From the NCBI GenBank assembly GCA_013289795.1, contig JABCZH010000007.1, forward strand, positions 186,001 to 250,000: 64,000 bases of DNA. The letters run 5' to 3'. The DNA is from Acidobacteriota bacterium (GTDB lineage: Bacteria > Acidobacteriota > Terriglobia > Terriglobales > Acidobacteriaceae). A model generated the notes under the pieces. It was given only the letters and a program-made list of their open reading frames with translations. It was not told where the DNA came from and searched no databases. Positions 55,168 to 64,000 of this stretch are shown one piece after another; the stretch's first letter is position 1; each line of letters starts with the position of its first letter. Position numbers and translations under genes: made by a program.

Positions 55168-56658
55168 CTACACAATCTTCGCTACCAGGTCGTAATCGTG
55201 CGCCTCGGTAATCTGGCAGCGGTAGAACTCGCCTTCTTTCGGTTCGAGCCCGTCGCGCACGTCATTCACGAACACCTTGCCGTCGATCTCCGGGGCATGC
55301 ATCGCCGTCCGGCCTTCGAGCAGCAGGTCACTTTCGTCGGACATGCCCCCGAGCAGCAGGTCAAACTCCTTGCCGACCAAAGCCTTCTTGCTCTTCTTGC
55401 TGATGCGCTTCTGAATCTGCATCAGATACTTCCGCCGACGCTCGATCTCGCGTGAAGGCAGCTTGTCGTCGATCCCGAAAGCGCCTGCACCCTCTTGATC
55501 CGAGTAGCCAAACACGCCCATCCAATCGACCTTGGCCTCACGGACGAATTCACACAGCTCTTCAAATTCCTTTTCAGTCTCCCCCGGAAAGCCGACTATG
55601 AAAGATGTTCTTAAAGTAACCTCGGGAATCGTGCGCCGCATCTTCTCAATCGACCGCAGGAACACCTCGGCTCCGCCGCCTCGCTTCATGCGCTTCAAAA
55701 CCGTTGCCGACGCATGTTGCAGTGGCACATCCATGTACGAGCAAATCTTGTCATGACCGGCAATCGTCTCAAGCAATCGGCCCGTAATCTTGTTAGGATA
55801 CGCATACAGAAACCGCACCCAGCGCAGGTCTTCAATGGTGGCTAGTTTCTCCAGCAATAGCGCCAGACCGTCTTTCAGGCCGAAATCTTCTCCATAGCAG
55901 GTCGTGTCCTGGCCAATCAGCGTAACCTCGCGCACCCCCCCGCGCGCCAGACGCTCAACTTCCGCCACAACCGATTCAAACCGCCGCGAGCGAAACTTCC
56001 CTCGTAGCTGGGGAATAATGCAAAAGCTGCACGGATGATCGCAGCCCTCGGCAATCTTCACATACGCGGTGTACTTTGGCGTGGCCAGCACACGAGGCGT
56101 GGCTTCGTCATAGAGATAATTGGGAAGATCGGCAATCGCGCCATCCCACGACTCGCGCGAGAACCGGCCTTGGGCAGCCCGTGCATCGCCTTCCGGGCGC
56201 GTAGTTAGGATTGTGAAAGGAGAATTAGGCGTCGGCTGAGGCGCGATTCCAGCAGCCGCCAGAATGTTTCCCAGCTCTCCGGTGCCGACCACCGCGTCAA
56301 CTTCCGGAATGTTCTTCTGAATGTCGCCGCGAAAACGCTCCACCAGGCAACCCGCAACGATCAACTTGCGCGCCCGGCCATCGTTCTTGTGCCGCGCCAT
56401 TTCCAGGATCGCATTCACCGATTCCTGCTGCGCGCTCTCGATAAACGAGCAAGTATTCACCACAATGACGTCGGCATCCTCGGCGCGGGCAATCAACTGC
56501 GCCCCGGCCTGCGCCAGCATGCCCATCATGACTTCGCTATCGACCAGGTTCTTGGGGCATCCCAGGCTGACAAAGCCGACTTTAGGCGGCCCAGCGGCCG
56601 CTTTTTCAGTAATTTCGGCTTCGTTATCGATCTCTACAGTGGGGTTCGGAGACGGCAT
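55168..56658 (-). CDS. rimO: Ribosomal protein S12 methylthiotransferase RimO
   Basis: RimO adds a methylthio group to an Asp of ribosomal protein S12. The 496-residue enzyme has the N-terminal UPF0004 domain ([29 protein letters not shown]), the radical-SAM cluster CxxxCxxC in [14 protein letters not shown], and a C-terminal TRAM domain. The ATG at 56658 gives an N-terminal tail of about 25 residues before the domain. A longer frame to 56829 has no support. It lies next to yacG and a transglutaminase gene. Confidence 0.96.
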
Positions 56659-56698
56659 CAATCTAGCTATTTTAGCAGCTCGCGAGGCCCATCCGGCC

Positions 56699-58852
56699 TT
56701 ACCGCTTGCTCGCCTCCGCCACTTCCTCATAATCCTCCGGCAGCCGCGCCGCGTCCTCCGCCGAATCCCCAAACCGTGCCCGCTCATAATGCTCGGCAAA
56801 TCTCGCCAATGGCTCGCGCACGCGACCATCTTTCAACCCAGCCACAAATTCCGCCGGAGTCTGCGCCGGCAGCTTCTGCCAGCCGCGCTTCGCTAGCATG
56901 CGCAAGACGCGCTCATACCAGATCGTCGCCGCCACCCGCGGAGATCGCTCCGGCCGCGCCGCTACTCGCCGTCGGCGAATCTCCCGCCACAGCCGGGCCG
57001 AATACGCGCCCAGAACCAGCAACACTGCCACGCCCAGCGCCACTCCGCCCCAACGCCACGGAGCATTCGACACTGCGTTTCCCGTTCGTCGCGCGGCCTC
57101 CAGCCATGCGTCGTATTGCATCCGTCCCCACTGCCGCGCTCGTCGAATCCATTCCGTGCCGCCCTGCGCCGCACGATGTCCCAGGATGTACTGATGGCTC
57201 ACGTCATAACTGACCACCCACTCTCGCCAGAACGAGGCCATCGCGTCCGCATACAAAGCCCATCGGTTCCATCCGGTCCGAACCTCGGCGGGCGCCGCCG
57301 GTGTGGGATCAAAACTGATCCAGCCATATCCCGGGAAATATGCTTCCACCCACGAATGCGCATTGCTGGCCCGCACCAGATATTGCGAGGTCACGTCATT
57401 GAACTCGCCCGTGCGGAATCCGTTGACCACTCGCGAGGGAATCTTCAAAGTTCGGAGCATCACTGCCATGGCAGACGCGAAATATTCGCAATGGCCCTGC
57501 TTGCGCTCGAACAGGAAATAAGCCAGCGGATCGCGATGCGCCGATCGTCCCAGTTGCAGTGTGTATCCAAAATGCGTCCGCAAGTAGCGTTCCAGTGCCA
57601 CAGCCTTGTCGTAATTGTTGCGCTCGGCAACCGTGATCTGCGCCGCCAGCGGCGCAACGCGCGAATCCAGCCGCGGCAGTTGCAAATAATTCAGCAGTAC
57701 GGCCGGCGGATAATCCTGCCCAGCCGCACGAAGCTCGGTCGCCCCAGGCTGGGCGACGCTTGATTCCGCATCATAAGTGCCCACCGGACGGTCGAAGTCG
57801 CTGTCAAAAACCGCCCCTGCCTCATCCCGCGACACCAGCCGATAGTTGCCCCCCAGATTGAGCGCTTCCGGCGCTAGAAAGAAAACATTGTTGGCAATCG
57901 GCTCCATCAGCACACGGTACTGAATGCGATGGCCAGCTCGCGCTCCATTCTCTGACGAAAGCAGAAAGCGCCCGCTCGGCGATCGCGCGACCATGCGATG
58001 CTCATAAGGATTCGACCAGGTAGTGCCATCGAACAAGCTCAGCGCCACTCCTCGCCACTTCAGGTCGAAAGCTCCATGCGAGTCGCCATCGATCTGTATG
58101 TGCATCACCAGCGCACCGGATTGCTGGATCTCGCCGATGCGTCCCAGTTGCACCCGATCACTGAATCCGGTGGCAATCTCGCCTGTAGGCGTGTATGCGC
58201 TCAGATATCCGCTCGAAACTCGTGGCAGCACAAAGAAAATGACCGCCGCACCCAGCGCAATCAACAACACAAGTGCCGGCGTGACTTTGGCTAACGAAAC
58301 TCTCATTTGCCGTGAAGCCGACGCATCGTCCGTGGCCGACTGAAACGCAGCGCTGGCCGACGCCCGCCGCATCTCCATCAGGATGAATGTCACCACCGCA
58401 GTCAACATGAATCCGACGAACGCCAGCAAAAACGTCGAGTCAACGGTCAACACTGCCGCGGCCAGCACCATCAGGAAGGCGATCACTGCCAGGAAGTAGT
58501 GATCACGATCGCGGCGTGCCGAGAACAGCCGCATCACCAGGGCAAAGAGAACCAGATGTACGGCCGAACTGACGAACGCCCGCGAGATTACGAGATAATC
58601 TGCGAGGTAAAACGCAACGTAAACCAGCGTCAGGATGGTGGTCCAGCGCTCCGGAATGAGGAGCGTACGCCGCGTCACCAAGCAATACCCACGGAAGAGA
58701 ATGGCGCCGCCGGCCAAAACCATCGCCGACAGATCCAGCCCGCCGGTGGATGCCAGCGTTGCAAACCCCATCAGCACCAGCAAATAGAGCGCGATCTCAA
58801 AGTAGCGCTCGATCGCCAACTGCAAAGGCTGCGGATTGTCAGCTGTGACCAT
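56699..58852 (-). CDS. TgpA-like membrane transglutaminase (DUF3488 and DUF4129)
   Basis: The 717-residue protein begins with six to seven membrane helices (DUF3488), then a periplasmic transglutaminase domain with KQGHCEYFASAMAVMLR (catalytic Cys), NAHSWVEAYFPGYGWISFDPTP (His and Asp), and a further helix followed by a C-terminal DUF4129-type tail. TgpA proteins are membrane-bound transglutaminases of unsettled substrate. The 40-base gap to rimO is short, so co-transcription with rimO-yacG-pgpA on the same strand is likely. Confidence 0.92.
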   Translation of the reverse strand: MVTADNPQPLQLAIERYFEIALYLLVLMGFATLASTGGLDLSAMVLAGGAILFRGYCLVTRRTLLIPERWTTILTLVYVAFYLADYLVISRAFVSSAVHLVLFALVMRLFSARRDRDHYFLAVIAFLMVLAAAVLTVDSTFLLAFVGFMLTAVVTFILMEMRRASASAAFQSATDDASASRQMRVSLAKVTPALVLLIALGAAVIFFVLPRVSSGYLSAYTPTGEIATGFSDRVQLGRIGEIQQSGALVMHIQIDGDSHGAFDLKWRGVALSLFDGTTWSNPYEHRMVARSPSGRFLLSSENGARAGHRIQYRVLMEPIANNVFFLAPEALNLGGNYRLVSRDEAGAVFDSDFDRPVGTYDAESSVAQPGATELRAAGQDYPPAVLLNYLQLPRLDSRVAPLAAQITVAERNNYDKAVALERYLRTHFGYTLQLGRSAHRDPLAYFLFERKQGHCEYFASAMAVMLRTLKIPSRVVNGFRTGEFNDVTSQYLVRASNAHSWVEAYFPGYGWISFDPTPAAPAEVRTGWNRWALYADAMASFWREWVVSYDVSHQYILGHRAAQGGTEWIRRARQWGRMQYDAWLEAARRTGNAVSNAPWRWGGVALGVAVLLVLGAYSARLWREIRRRRVAARPERSPRVAATIWYERVLRMLAKRGWQKLPAQTPAEFVAGLKDGRVREPLARFAEHYERARFGDSAEDAARLPEDYEEVAEASKR

Positions 58853-61077: not shown

Positions 61078-63090
61078 CTATTTAGCCTTCTCCGGTTCAA
61101 AAGCCTTCTGCAAATACTTTCGCGCTTCGTCCAACGCGCCCTGGGTATTGTCGTTGGTTTGCAGTGCTTGTCGATACTCGCCTACCGCGCGTTCCCGCTG
61201 CCCGGTAACGTCAAAAATCTTGCCCAGCTGAATATGGCTCCAAACCTCCGTCCACCGGGGTTCGCCGTCACCGTTGAGCGAATCGCGGTAGGCGTTGGCC
61301 GACGCCTGGTAGTTCTTCTGCTGGAAGAAAATCTCAGCGATCCGGTAATGTGCCAGCGAACTATTCTTGCTGACGCTCAGCGCCTTGTTGTATTCGGATA
61401 GCGCGCCCGCCAGGTCGCCTTGTTGTACATAGGCCTGCCCGCGCTGAATGGACGCGCGCAGCTTCACGTCGCTGGAATTCTTCAGCACGTTGTTCCCCGG
61501 ATCGATCGAAATCCGCCGCGGTTTGCCAAAGGTCTCAATCGTGAACGGCGAATCTGTGCCGACCACTTCAATCCGCTTGTTTTCCGTCTTGCCGTCGGTG
61601 TCAATCTTCAAATCTACCGGCATCCGAAACAGGTCCAGGTCCTGAGTAATCTGGCCCACGACGCGGAAACCCTTGTTGTTTCCCAGCCGGTACACTGTGT
61701 ACTTCGTTTTGAACTCCGGCGCTCCTGTGGAGTCGAGCCATTGGGAAAAGAACCAGGTCAGCTTGTCGCCGTAGTACTGCTCGGCGATGGCGCGGAAATC
61801 GTCCAGGGAGGCAGACTTCCCCGCGCACTTCGTGGCGAAAGTCCGCATGGTGAGGTCGTACTTCTGATCTCCTTCCACCCAGCGTAGCATGTGCAAAATC
61901 ATCGCGCCCTTGTCGGTCGCCAGCGACTGGAATTCCGGTGAGAAGATGTCCAGCTTGCCCACCGTGGCCAGTGGCACCGTGTCATAGGCGAGCGCGCCTA
62001 CCGACATGTCCTTGACCGCTTCCTCCAGGCCCGCAACTCCGGCGGCGTTCTCGATGTATCGTGCCTCCGAGTAACGCGCGAAGCCGTCCGACAACCACCA
62101 GTCATCCACCGACGCCGGACTCACTGACACTCCCCACCACTGGTGCGCGATGGTATTCGCCAACAGCCGGTAGTTCACTTTTTCGGTAACCGCGCGACTG
62201 GCGATCGCGGCAATTTCCGGCGCCCAGGCGGAGGGCAACGTGTCGTCGGGCAGCTCCACCACCCTAAGCCGGTTCGAAGGCGGCACTCCGTACAAAGTCA
62301 CGAAGTAGGTAAACTCCTTGACTGCGGTGGTGGCATACTGCGGCCCCAGGTTCTGATGGTTCGGTTTGAAGAAAACGTGTAGATCGACTCCGGCTTCGTC
62401 GCTCTTAAACTCCTGAAACGTCCCTGCAACAATGGTTCCCGGAAAACTTGGTTTGTCCCAAGTGAAGCTGTAAGTCTTGGTTGGCAAACCGGCGACCGTG
62501 CCCTTCTTGGCTGGAAGCGGAGTCCCCTCGCTTTCCTTCCCACTGCCAATCACCACCATGTGAGCGGGAACCGTGATGTTCATGGTCGCCGTAAACCGGT
62601 TGATGCCATAACCACTGACCGGAAACCAGCGCCCAGCATAGAGCAGATAGCTGGTGTCATCGTTAATGGCCGCCACTTTGAGCCCCTGTACCGGACTCTC
62701 GTCGGCGGAGTCGAGCGTGCCGTCGTATTCAAACGTCAAGCTGCTGGACTCGTCCTTGCTCAGCGTCCTGGAAAGCTGCACGCGCACGCTGGAGTCCTGC
62801 ACCCCGCGCTCGGCAGAGACCGGCTTTCCCGCATCGTCGCTGACCTTCGTGACGCGCAGCGCATTATGCAATTCGAACGTGGCAATGTTCAGAGTCTCGA
62901 GAGCGGTGAACTTCACCCTGGCACGCGCCGTGAGCTTGTGGGTATGCGGAATCAGTTCCGCGTCGATCTGATAATCATCCACCCGCAGGCGCGTTTTTTC
63001 CGCTGCCCAGGAGGGCAAGCAACCGAACATGAGGAAAAACGTGAAGCCGAGGACTAGGGCGTGACGCGTACGCCGGCTTGAACAGAGCAT
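61078..63090 (-). CDS. M1-like aminopeptidase homologue with lost zinc site, fused to TPRs
   Basis: The 670-residue protein has a signal peptide (VLGFTFFLMFGCLPSWAAE), an M1-type N-terminal beta domain, and a catalytic-like region with LLANTIAHQWWG and WWLSDGFARYSEARY. The HExxH zinc motif is NTIAH at residues 312-316, so His312 is Asn and Glu313 is Thr, and the third ligand Glu335 is Asp. There is no GAMEN motif. It is therefore probably not a peptidase. About 120 C-terminal residues form TPRs (AYVQQGDLAGALSEYNKAL, AEIFFQQKNYQASANAY). It is likely a binding protein of the envelope. Confidence 0.85.
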   Translation of the reverse strand: MLCSSRRTRHALVLGFTFFLMFGCLPSWAAEKTRLRVDDYQIDAELIPHTHKLTARARVKFTALETLNIATFELHNALRVTKVSDDAGKPVSAERGVQDSSVRVQLSRTLSKDESSSLTFEYDGTLDSADESPVQGLKVAAINDDTSYLLYAGRWFPVSGYGINRFTATMNITVPAHMVVIGSGKESEGTPLPAKKGTVAGLPTKTYSFTWDKPSFPGTIVAGTFQEFKSDEAGVDLHVFFKPNHQNLGPQYATTAVKEFTYFVTLYGVPPSNRLRVVELPDDTLPSAWAPEIAAIASRAVTEKVNYRLLANTIAHQWWGVSVSPASVDDWWLSDGFARYSEARYIENAAGVAGLEEAVKDMSVGALAYDTVPLATVGKLDIFSPEFQSLATDKGAMILHMLRWVEGDQKYDLTMRTFATKCAGKSASLDDFRAIAEQYYGDKLTWFFSQWLDSTGAPEFKTKYTVYRLGNNKGFRVVGQITQDLDLFRMPVDLKIDTDGKTENKRIEVVGTDSPFTIETFGKPRRISIDPGNNVLKNSSDVKLRASIQRGQAYVQQGDLAGALSEYNKALSVSKNSSLAHYRIAEIFFQQKNYQASANAYRDSLNGDGEPRWTEVWSHIQLGKIFDVTGQRERAVGEYRQALQTNDNTQGALDEARKYLQKAFEPEKAK

Positions 63091-63166: not shown

Positions 63167-64000
63167 CTAATCCACGGCCCCCGCGGAGATCGGTTTTCCC
63201 GGTCGTTTCTTCTCAGTTCGGGCCAGAATCGTCATGATTGCCTCCGCCGCCTGCTCCGCTGCTGGCGGCCCGTTGAGCGCACCCCGCAGAGCGGCTCTCA
63301 CCCCACCAAGTCCTGCAATCATGCTCTCGCGAGCGGGCCCGTCTGACAATATTTTGACAACTTCCGCCACGACCTTTTCCGGTGTGAAGTCCTGCTGCAC
63401 CAGTTCCGGCACCACTTCTTTGCCCGCGATCAAGTTCACCATGGCAAAGTGCGGGACTTTCACCCGCGAGCGTCCCAGAAGATATGTCAACGGGCTCACG
63501 CGATAAACCATCACAAACGGCGTTCCCATCAGCGCCGCTTCCACCGTTGCCGTGCCGCTGGCGATGATTCCCGCCCGCGAGTGAGCCAGGGCTGGCAACG
63601 CTTCCGGCATAAGTCGCACCGGAACCGTCTTGCCGGCCAAGTCTTCCAGCCACGCTCGATCCAGGGTCGGCGCCACCGGGAGCAAGAATTCATATCCCGG
63701 ACCCAGTCTCACTGCCGATTCCAGAATTACCGGTAGATTCATCCGCACTTCTTTCATCCGGCTCCCTGGCATAAGCGTGATCCAGGTCTTGGACACGTCC
63801 AATCCATGTTGGACGGCATAATCGCTGCGGGGCACCTGCGGCTTCGCCAGCCCGGCAAGCGGATGCCCCACAAAAGTCGCATCGACCCCACGATCCCGAT
63901 AAAATTTCTCTTCGAAGGGAAAAATCACCAGCGCTTTATCCACATACTTGCGAAGCAAACGTACTCGCCCTTGCCGCCACGCCCAGAACTGTGGACACAC
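63167..64000 (-). CDS. lpxB: Lipid-A-disaccharide synthase, C-terminal part (start beyond window)
   Basis: LpxB joins UDP-diacylglucosamine with lipid X to make the lipid A disaccharide. The 278 residues in the window start at PQFWAWRQGR, which corresponds to the middle of the protein, followed by IFPFEEKFYRDRGV, FVGHPLAGLA, ITLMPGSRMKEV and ASGTATVEAALMGTPFVMVYR. The first GTG at the window edge is not the true start; the N-terminal part, about 110 residues, lies outside the window. It proves a Gram-negative outer membrane with lipid A. Confidence 0.95.
   Translation of the reverse strand: MCPQFWAWRQGRVRLLRKYVDKALVIFPFEEKFYRDRGVDATFVGHPLAGLAKPQVPRSDYAVQHGLDVSKTWITLMPGSRMKEVRMNLPVILESAVRLGPGYEFLLPVAPTLDRAWLEDLAGKTVPVRLMPEALPALAHSRAGIIASGTATVEAALMGTPFVMVYRVSPLTYLLGRSRVKVPHFAMVNLIAGKEVVPELVQQDFTPEKVVAEVVKILSDGPARESMIAGLGGVRAALRGALNGPPAAEQAAEAIMTILARTEKKRPGKPISAGAVD

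Follow-up and report, generated by a model that had tools for sequence, protein, structure and literature searches.

A conserved M1-fold protein with lost catalytic residues and a C-terminal TPR domain, encoded next to lpxB in Acidobacteriota, is a candidate envelope factor

What use does a bacterium have for a protein that is built like an M1 zinc aminopeptidase, is fused to TPRs and reads NTIAH where HExxH should stand? The question is raised by an open reading frame near the end of the window, by which we mean the whole stretch of 64,000 nucleotides of an Acidobacteriota contig (family Acidobacteriaceae) that was analysed. The frame (61078–63090, minus strand, as are all features of the gene given below) has an ATG start, is open throughout and encodes 670 amino acids; its boundaries were confirmed exactly. 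The product, here called the M1-TPR protein, starts with a signal-peptide-like segment (residues 1–29, 63004–63090; a hydrophobic helix at 6–23 followed by SWA-AE). There follow M1 domain I, the N-terminal beta domain (residues about 35–230, 62401–62988), the thermolysin-like domain II, whose catalytic residues are lost (residues about 243–453, 61732–62364), the beta-sandwich domain III (residues about 460–530, 61501–61713) and a TPR domain (residues about 540–662, 61105–61473) that is the best conserved part of the protein. Domains I and III were placed by the structural model and structural alignment (Pfam adds a weak Peptidase_M1_N match to domain I, E 0.089), domain II by Pfam PF01433 and structure, and the TPR domain by Pfam, the model, conservation and dN/dS.

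The Pfam Peptidase_M1 match covers residues 306–451 (E 3e-14, 53.5 bits against a curated cut-off of 27.7) and several TPR families match within residues 545–650 above their curated cut-offs; Peptidase_M48 was absent among the 20 Pfam families matching at E ≤ 1, and no NCBIfam model exceeded its cut-off. An AlphaFold2 model made with 59 aligned sequences (pLDDT 82.1, pTM 0.78) has the domain order N-terminal beta domain, thermolysin-like domain, beta-sandwich and TPR helices, and includes the N-terminal helix 6–23, with low confidence at both ends. Its best Foldseek matches are IRAP and ERAP1, and VIA-align gives Z of about 37 to both tricorn factor F3 (461 residues) and LTA4H (417 residues), so that modelling bears out the M1 fold assigned in the original prediction. 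By the Pfam cut-off and the modelled fold of domains I–III the protein is clearly an M1 homologue.

The positions that matter for catalysis were located by script: NTIAH at 312 (residues 312–316, 62143–62157), DGFA at 335 (Asp335, 62086–62088) and TDKG at 392 (Thr392, 61915–61917). The M1 structure from D. radiodurans (6iff/6a8z) aligns to the protein with an E value of 2e-9 and sets NTIAHQWW against H-[A/E]-LAHQWF (the A is the engineered E323A of 6iff), LSDGFA against LSEGFA and ATDKGA against AYFRGA; His-Glu of the motif is thus replaced by Asn-Thr, the third zinc ligand Glu by Asp335 and the catalytic Tyr by Thr392. At the position of the GAMEN exopeptidase motif, alignment with M1 paralogues places PSAWAPE (286–292, 62215–62235). 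According to the part of PMC10343166 consulted here, the zinc of M1 enzymes is bound by the two His together with the Glu further along the chain, the Glu of the motif is the general base, and changing the Tyr to Phe in PSA lowers kcat 1000-fold. The original prediction had recognised the degenerate HExxH, the Asp at 335 and the absence of GAMEN, all of which the alignments confirm; its count of altered residues was right for HExxH and Glu and missed the loss of the Tyr. Its statement that M1 enzymes need all of these residues is too strong for GAMEN. Five M1 paralogues from the same genome (L001–L005; a sixth, L007, lies outside the alignment) keep all five residues of HExxH, Glu and Tyr, yet two of them (L003 and L004) have GQSWP or SQGWP in place of GAMEN, and absence of GAMEN alone therefore proves little. 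Judged from these replacements, the loss of M1 catalysis is well supported and the protein is very probably not an M1 zinc peptidase.

Is the loss peculiar to this copy of the gene? At E ≤ 1e-10 the family to which this genome belongs has a match in 143 of its 150 genomes (106 of the 110 better ones), and at E ≤ 1e-8 matches were seen in 293 of the 299 class genomes and in 338 of the 396 phylum genomes; these last two counts take in weaker M1 or TPR relatives and are upper bounds for true orthologues. A contig scan for relatives, with patterns taken from this one protein, gave 210 matches, and among the best 80 the named records of close relatives are Acidobacteriota, many of them labelled as Terriglobia or Acidobacteriaceae; in plasmid records just distant M1 relatives were seen (35 records, all below 60% identity). 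The 290 loci gathered gave 288 with a match, 243 of them distinct; eight rows under 200 bits were dropped (five own-genome M1 paralogues and L288–L290), leaving 235, and one row gapped at the motif brought the number counted to 234. Not one of the 234 homologues has HExxH, Glu and Tyr complete. His316 is retained in 168, Glu313 in 28, Glu335 in 18, Tyr392 in 14 and His312 in 8. HExxH plus Glu is kept in four (L196, L231, L235 and L244), and their Tyr site reads F, S, F and Q respectively. Three of these come from other families; the fourth, L196, comes from a same-family genome whose estimated contamination is 6%; it groups with L235, to which it has 77% identity, and may be a stray contig.

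The group to which the window's protein belongs was taken as 176 rows, namely those above 640 bits plus L147, L195, L199–L201 and L203; it leaves out L202 (gapped at the motif), L204 (a divergent same-family row reading T-A..A..D) and L196. Within it neither His312 nor Glu313 occurs even once. Position 312 is N in 158 and D in 18, position 313 is T in 120 and A in 46, position 316 is H in 162 and R in 14, position 335 is D in 112, N in 57 and E in 5, and position 392 is T in 110, L in 48 and Y in 5. Because 312, 316 and 335 are constrained in this way, the old site may not be wholly without function in the group, and a purely vestigial site would not explain the pattern. The same constraint (N or D at 312 in 176/176, H at 316 in 162/176, D or N at 335 in 169/176) is what could be said for a rebuilt active site in an enzyme that still works, where Asn/Asp312, His316 and Asp/Asn335 would hold another metal or serve some other hydrolysis. 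We regard this as very improbable and disfavoured it, since just 18 of the 176, and 22 of the 235 rows overall, have a residue able to bind metal (H, D, E or C) at each of the three positions, His316 gives way to Arg in 14 of the group, other lineages read NQxxR..N or RExxY..Q, and the catalytic Tyr has been replaced as well.

Purifying selection on the gene is strong. In 31 independent pairs with amino acid identity of 0.86–0.97 (29 pairs for the Ig-like domain), the median dN/dS of the whole gene was 0.041; by domain it was 0.052 (domain I), 0.041 (catalytic domain), 0.037 (Ig-like domain) and 0.024 (TPR domain). TPR residues conserved in at least 99% of 108 representatives include P611, W613, G623, D627, R632, R634, A635 and Y639, and the metal site differs between lineages while the TPR region keeps near-invariant residues; what selection appears to maintain is the fold and a TPR surface for a partner, and not M1 catalysis. 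Sequencing error, a pseudogene or isolated decay, for which nothing was found to speak, can practically be dismissed given a loss conserved over 176 orthologues, an open frame and a median dN/dS of 0.04. The pseudo-peptidase of the original prediction is thereby strongly supported, by the conserved loss, the additional loss of the Tyr and purifying selection together; the check for orthologues with an intact HExxH that it proposed returns only the four rows above, all without Tyr. A separate idea, that the TPR module is widespread in the genome, was dropped, as besides the gene itself just two weaker matches were found (E 2e-9 with 29% identity, and E 6e-4).

To follow the loss through the family we used a FastTree tree of 115 rows and a quick IQ-TREE tree of 49 rows (the latter without L196, L204, L286, L258 and L264), with the trait columns masked in both. 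They agree on three parts: a Terriglobia-type clade that holds the window's protein, clade 2 with RRxxY-like sites and clade 3 with RExxY..Q; the placement of the root, which relies on long branches, is uncertain. Clade 3 (e.g. L262:3707–5995 and L273:3842–6034) is a deep M1-TPR clade, and in L273 the next gene, on the opposite strand, encodes a very large outer-membrane beta-barrel protein. On the IQ-TREE tree the minimum number of changes between intact and lost HExxH plus Glu is four; if no regain is allowed, about eight losses are counted by eye, a number that depends on forks with weak support, in the window group, L232/L240/L248, L236/L237, L242, L239/L243, L247/L250, clade 2 and clade 3. 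The genes in L244, L231 and L235, with HExxH and Glu intact and Q, S or F for the catalytic Tyr, still adjoin lpxB; they are possible intermediate stages or slow enzymes. The family offers apparent stages from enzyme to scaffold, in an order that we infer (HExxH without Tyr, HExxR, NTxxH and RxxxY forms), and should be useful for testing how pseudoenzymes arise.

If not peptide cleavage, what then is being conserved? The gene neighbourhood gives an indication. Upstream of the gene, across a gap of 76 bp and on the same strand, lies lpxB, the gene for lipid A disaccharide synthase (63167–64000, Pfam LpxB E 9.5e-54), which runs past the end of the window and is complete at L291:4168–5412. For a linkage test an lpxB profile was built from the loci and applied to homologues with at least 900 bp of upstream DNA. 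Outside clade 3, 195 of the 204 homologues with enough flank have lpxB upstream on their own strand, 180 of the 195 within 450 bp; the figure is 177/185 for Terriglobia and other rows (14 short flanks set aside) and 18/19 for clade 2. Six of the eight misses among Terriglobia and other have less than 2 kb of upstream DNA; the upstream flanks of 4.9 kb at L136, 3.9 kb at L258 and, for clade 2, 4.0 kb at L279 contain no lpxB. In clade 3 the count is 0/16, with one short flank set aside. An ABC exporter like that of the window's own genome, which by eye is MsbA-like and lies upstream of lpxB, is encoded upstream, in the same orientation, at 81 of the 144 loci whose flank reaches 3.5 kb and at none of 14 in clade 3; the copy at L150 matches ABC_membrane and ABC_tran. 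Pfam places a lipid A acyltransferase beside lpxB at L244, and at L241 and L252 genes unrelated to lipid A beyond lpxB. By comparison fabH, the downstream neighbour in the window, occurs in the flanks of just 13 of 243 rows, and the lpxB link is therefore not simply general conservation of gene order, although the contrast is rough as flank lengths differ. This linkage, which holds across class-level divergence, is new beyond the original prediction.

Several other features of the neighbourhood were recorded. Past the window end, L291:5437–7503, between lpxB and the MsbA-like exporter (L291:7625–9544), encodes what by eye looks like a PAS/GGDEF/EAL protein. Within the window and near the M1-TPR gene, 56699–58852 (minus strand) encodes a TgpA-type transglutaminase with DUF4129, and its 3′ end overlaps the 5′ end listed for a radical SAM frame that by eye is RimO-like (55168–56829). 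In one relative (L150:7273–10980) the two downstream genes have the same orientation as the M1-TPR gene and encode a pro-kumamolisin activation domain and bacterial Ig-like repeats. Between 60900 and 63400 there were two promoter-like sites (0.6 expected) and three terminator-like sites (2.6 expected, none on the minus strand); both counts were taken as uninformative.

The M1-TPR protein is probably exported to the periplasm. A crude signal pattern (a hydrophobic run with an AxA-like site) was found in 194 of the 235 homologues, compared with 55 when a control stretch of the 235 was scored, in keeping with the signal-like N-terminus of the window's protein. LpxB is cytosolic and the M1-TPR protein looks exported, so no direct complex between the two would be expected. 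The original prediction had already suggested an envelope complex on the strength of the TPR fusion; that suggestion is independently supported by the lpxB linkage and the signal-peptide-like N-terminus, which are better evidence for it.

We consider a job in LPS or outer-membrane biogenesis moderately likely for the M1-TPR protein, on the basis of synteny. Taken as a whole, the proposal of an exported, phylum-specific M1-fold pseudopeptidase, encoded behind lpxB and helping to assemble LPS or the outer membrane as a scaffold, holder or chaperone that does not cut, falls just on the probable side. M1 domains I–III are kept while the zinc-site and catalytic residues of M1 enzymes are gone; the gene, directly behind lpxB and often behind the MsbA-like exporter too, is probably co-transcribed with lpxB; the TPR domain would dock on a partner; the old substrate cleft would bind an extended peptide or a folding client and not cut it; and LPS or outer-membrane assembly would be served by a periplasmic holder or scaffold that is not a protease. 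The specific holder or scaffold mechanism is tentative, somewhat doubtful even, and the peptide-binding or scaffold function of the original prediction likewise can be no firmer than a suggestion. Counting against an LPS role are clade 3 and the loci L136, L258 and L279, which have no lpxB link, and synteny with lpxB could also persist through transcriptional convenience.

In a different account the pseudoenzyme has a general envelope or stress role (as peptide sink, or as peptidoglycan or secretion scaffold) and takes from lpxB only steady housekeeping expression. It would fit clade 3, in which the M1-TPR protein persists without lpxB as a neighbour (0/16), and it would fit the finding that the protein is not strictly required in genomes with LpxB: two near-complete genomes (99–100%) of the same family, G012 and G115, have LpxB and no match to the M1-TPR protein, which is therefore not needed everywhere that lipid A is made. 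Against it, the lpxB link is present in the class and outside it (clade 2) while the fabH neighbour changes, and the MsbA-like exporter accompanies the linkage in 81 of 144. We hold this account to be rather unlikely. Presence or absence of LpxB was rejected as a test of role; LpxB is present in 364 of the 396 phylum genomes, and co-occurrence with so nearly universal a protein says little. Very unlikely in our view is a third account, a regulatory partner that pairs through its TPRs with an active M1 or M48 peptidase as dominant-negative or adaptor subunit. The same genome does hold five active-looking M1 paralogues and several M48 peptidases, one of them with TPRs, and regulation of active cousins is a known role of pseudopeptidases (PMC11266112, in the part consulted); however, of the peptidase matches found in the genome none is close to the gene, and its conserved neighbours are lpxB and often the MsbA-like exporter.

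The M1-TPR protein is neither an artefact nor an ordinary peptidase but a member of a deep, conserved, lpxB-linked pseudoenzyme family, whose function we read from context. LPS assembly is known mainly from Proteobacteria, and here a conserved non-catalytic protein is tied to lpxB across much of Acidobacteriota, a main soil phylum; the family can be named as a definite candidate for an envelope factor that has gone unrecognised in these bacteria. Among the matches listed in a search of the open-access literature, no title or start of an abstract appeared to describe the family; as several lists ran on beyond the matches shown, this is weak evidence of absence.

How does the family compare with systems already known? 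With M1 aminopeptidases (6iff/6a8z; LTA4H, 3fui; tricorn factor F3, 1z1w) the protein has in common the fold of domains I–III, the position of the HExxH helix, the Q-W after the motif and the G-F-A after the third ligand; it differs in that two zinc ligands out of three are replaced, as are the general base, the catalytic Tyr and GAMEN, and in that domain III is followed by TPRs, not by a helical domain IV. The latter fills the last, C-terminal place in M1 enzymes such as PSA (PMC10343166, in the part consulted). Two further comparisons are with eukaryotic proteins. Yeast Tma108, an M1 family protein and possible pseudopeptidase, is thought to hold nascent chains in its substrate pocket, which makes it a precedent for an M1 pocket that holds peptides, but it keeps all active-site residues but one and acts on nascent chains at ribosomes (PMC11266112, in the same part). 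The second, the TFIID subunit TAF2, is an M1-like module in a non-proteolytic complex, and Taf2 (6hqa) gives a sequence match to our protein (E 1.2e-5). TAF2 is inactive and is a eukaryotic nuclear protein; we know of no TPR fusion in either Tma108 or TAF2, nor of an envelope context for TAF2. LapB/YciM, a TPR regulator of LPS synthesis, resembles the M1-TPR protein as a TPR protein serving LPS homeostasis; to our knowledge it has no M1 domain, and the NCBIfam LapB model gives the 670-residue protein just a weak TPR match (E 0.039; 13 bits, where the cut-off is 474).

A parallel in layout is BepA, the periplasmic M48-TPR protein of E. coli, which likewise has a zinc-peptidase-type domain followed by a TPR domain and an LPS-assembly context. 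From the portions of PMC7950410 and PMC8423444 consulted, BepA both degrades LptD and promotes its maturation, its TPR domain contacts LptD and BAM, and LptD maturation is less well supported by the E137Q form, which is dead as a protease (the last from PMC8423444). The M1-TPR protein differs in being M1, not M48, and in having no intact HExxH; moreover the window's genome has a separate BepA-like protein, an M48 peptidase fused to TPRs (L300:982–2985, on G000:C23), and the M1-TPR protein is therefore not needed for a BepA-like slot, so that a replacement for a missing BepA-type protein was rejected as unsupported. About 5 kb from L300 on the same contig lies L002, one of the M1 paralogues with intact catalytic residues. 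The analogy is thus one of architecture and context, the architecture of the M1-TPR protein seeming convergent on that of BepA. A broader history, which we put forward as doubtful but worth stating, is that a zinc peptidase was captured early into the Acidobacteriota lipid A operon and lost its protease repeatedly and in parallel while fold, TPR surface and lpxB linkage were kept; the protein might now be an ancient, phylum-specific component of LPS and outer-membrane assembly, a dedicated non-proteolytic periplasmic chaperone for LptD (whose gene is present in the window's genome) or another outer-membrane client, convergent with the assembly-promoting half of BepA.
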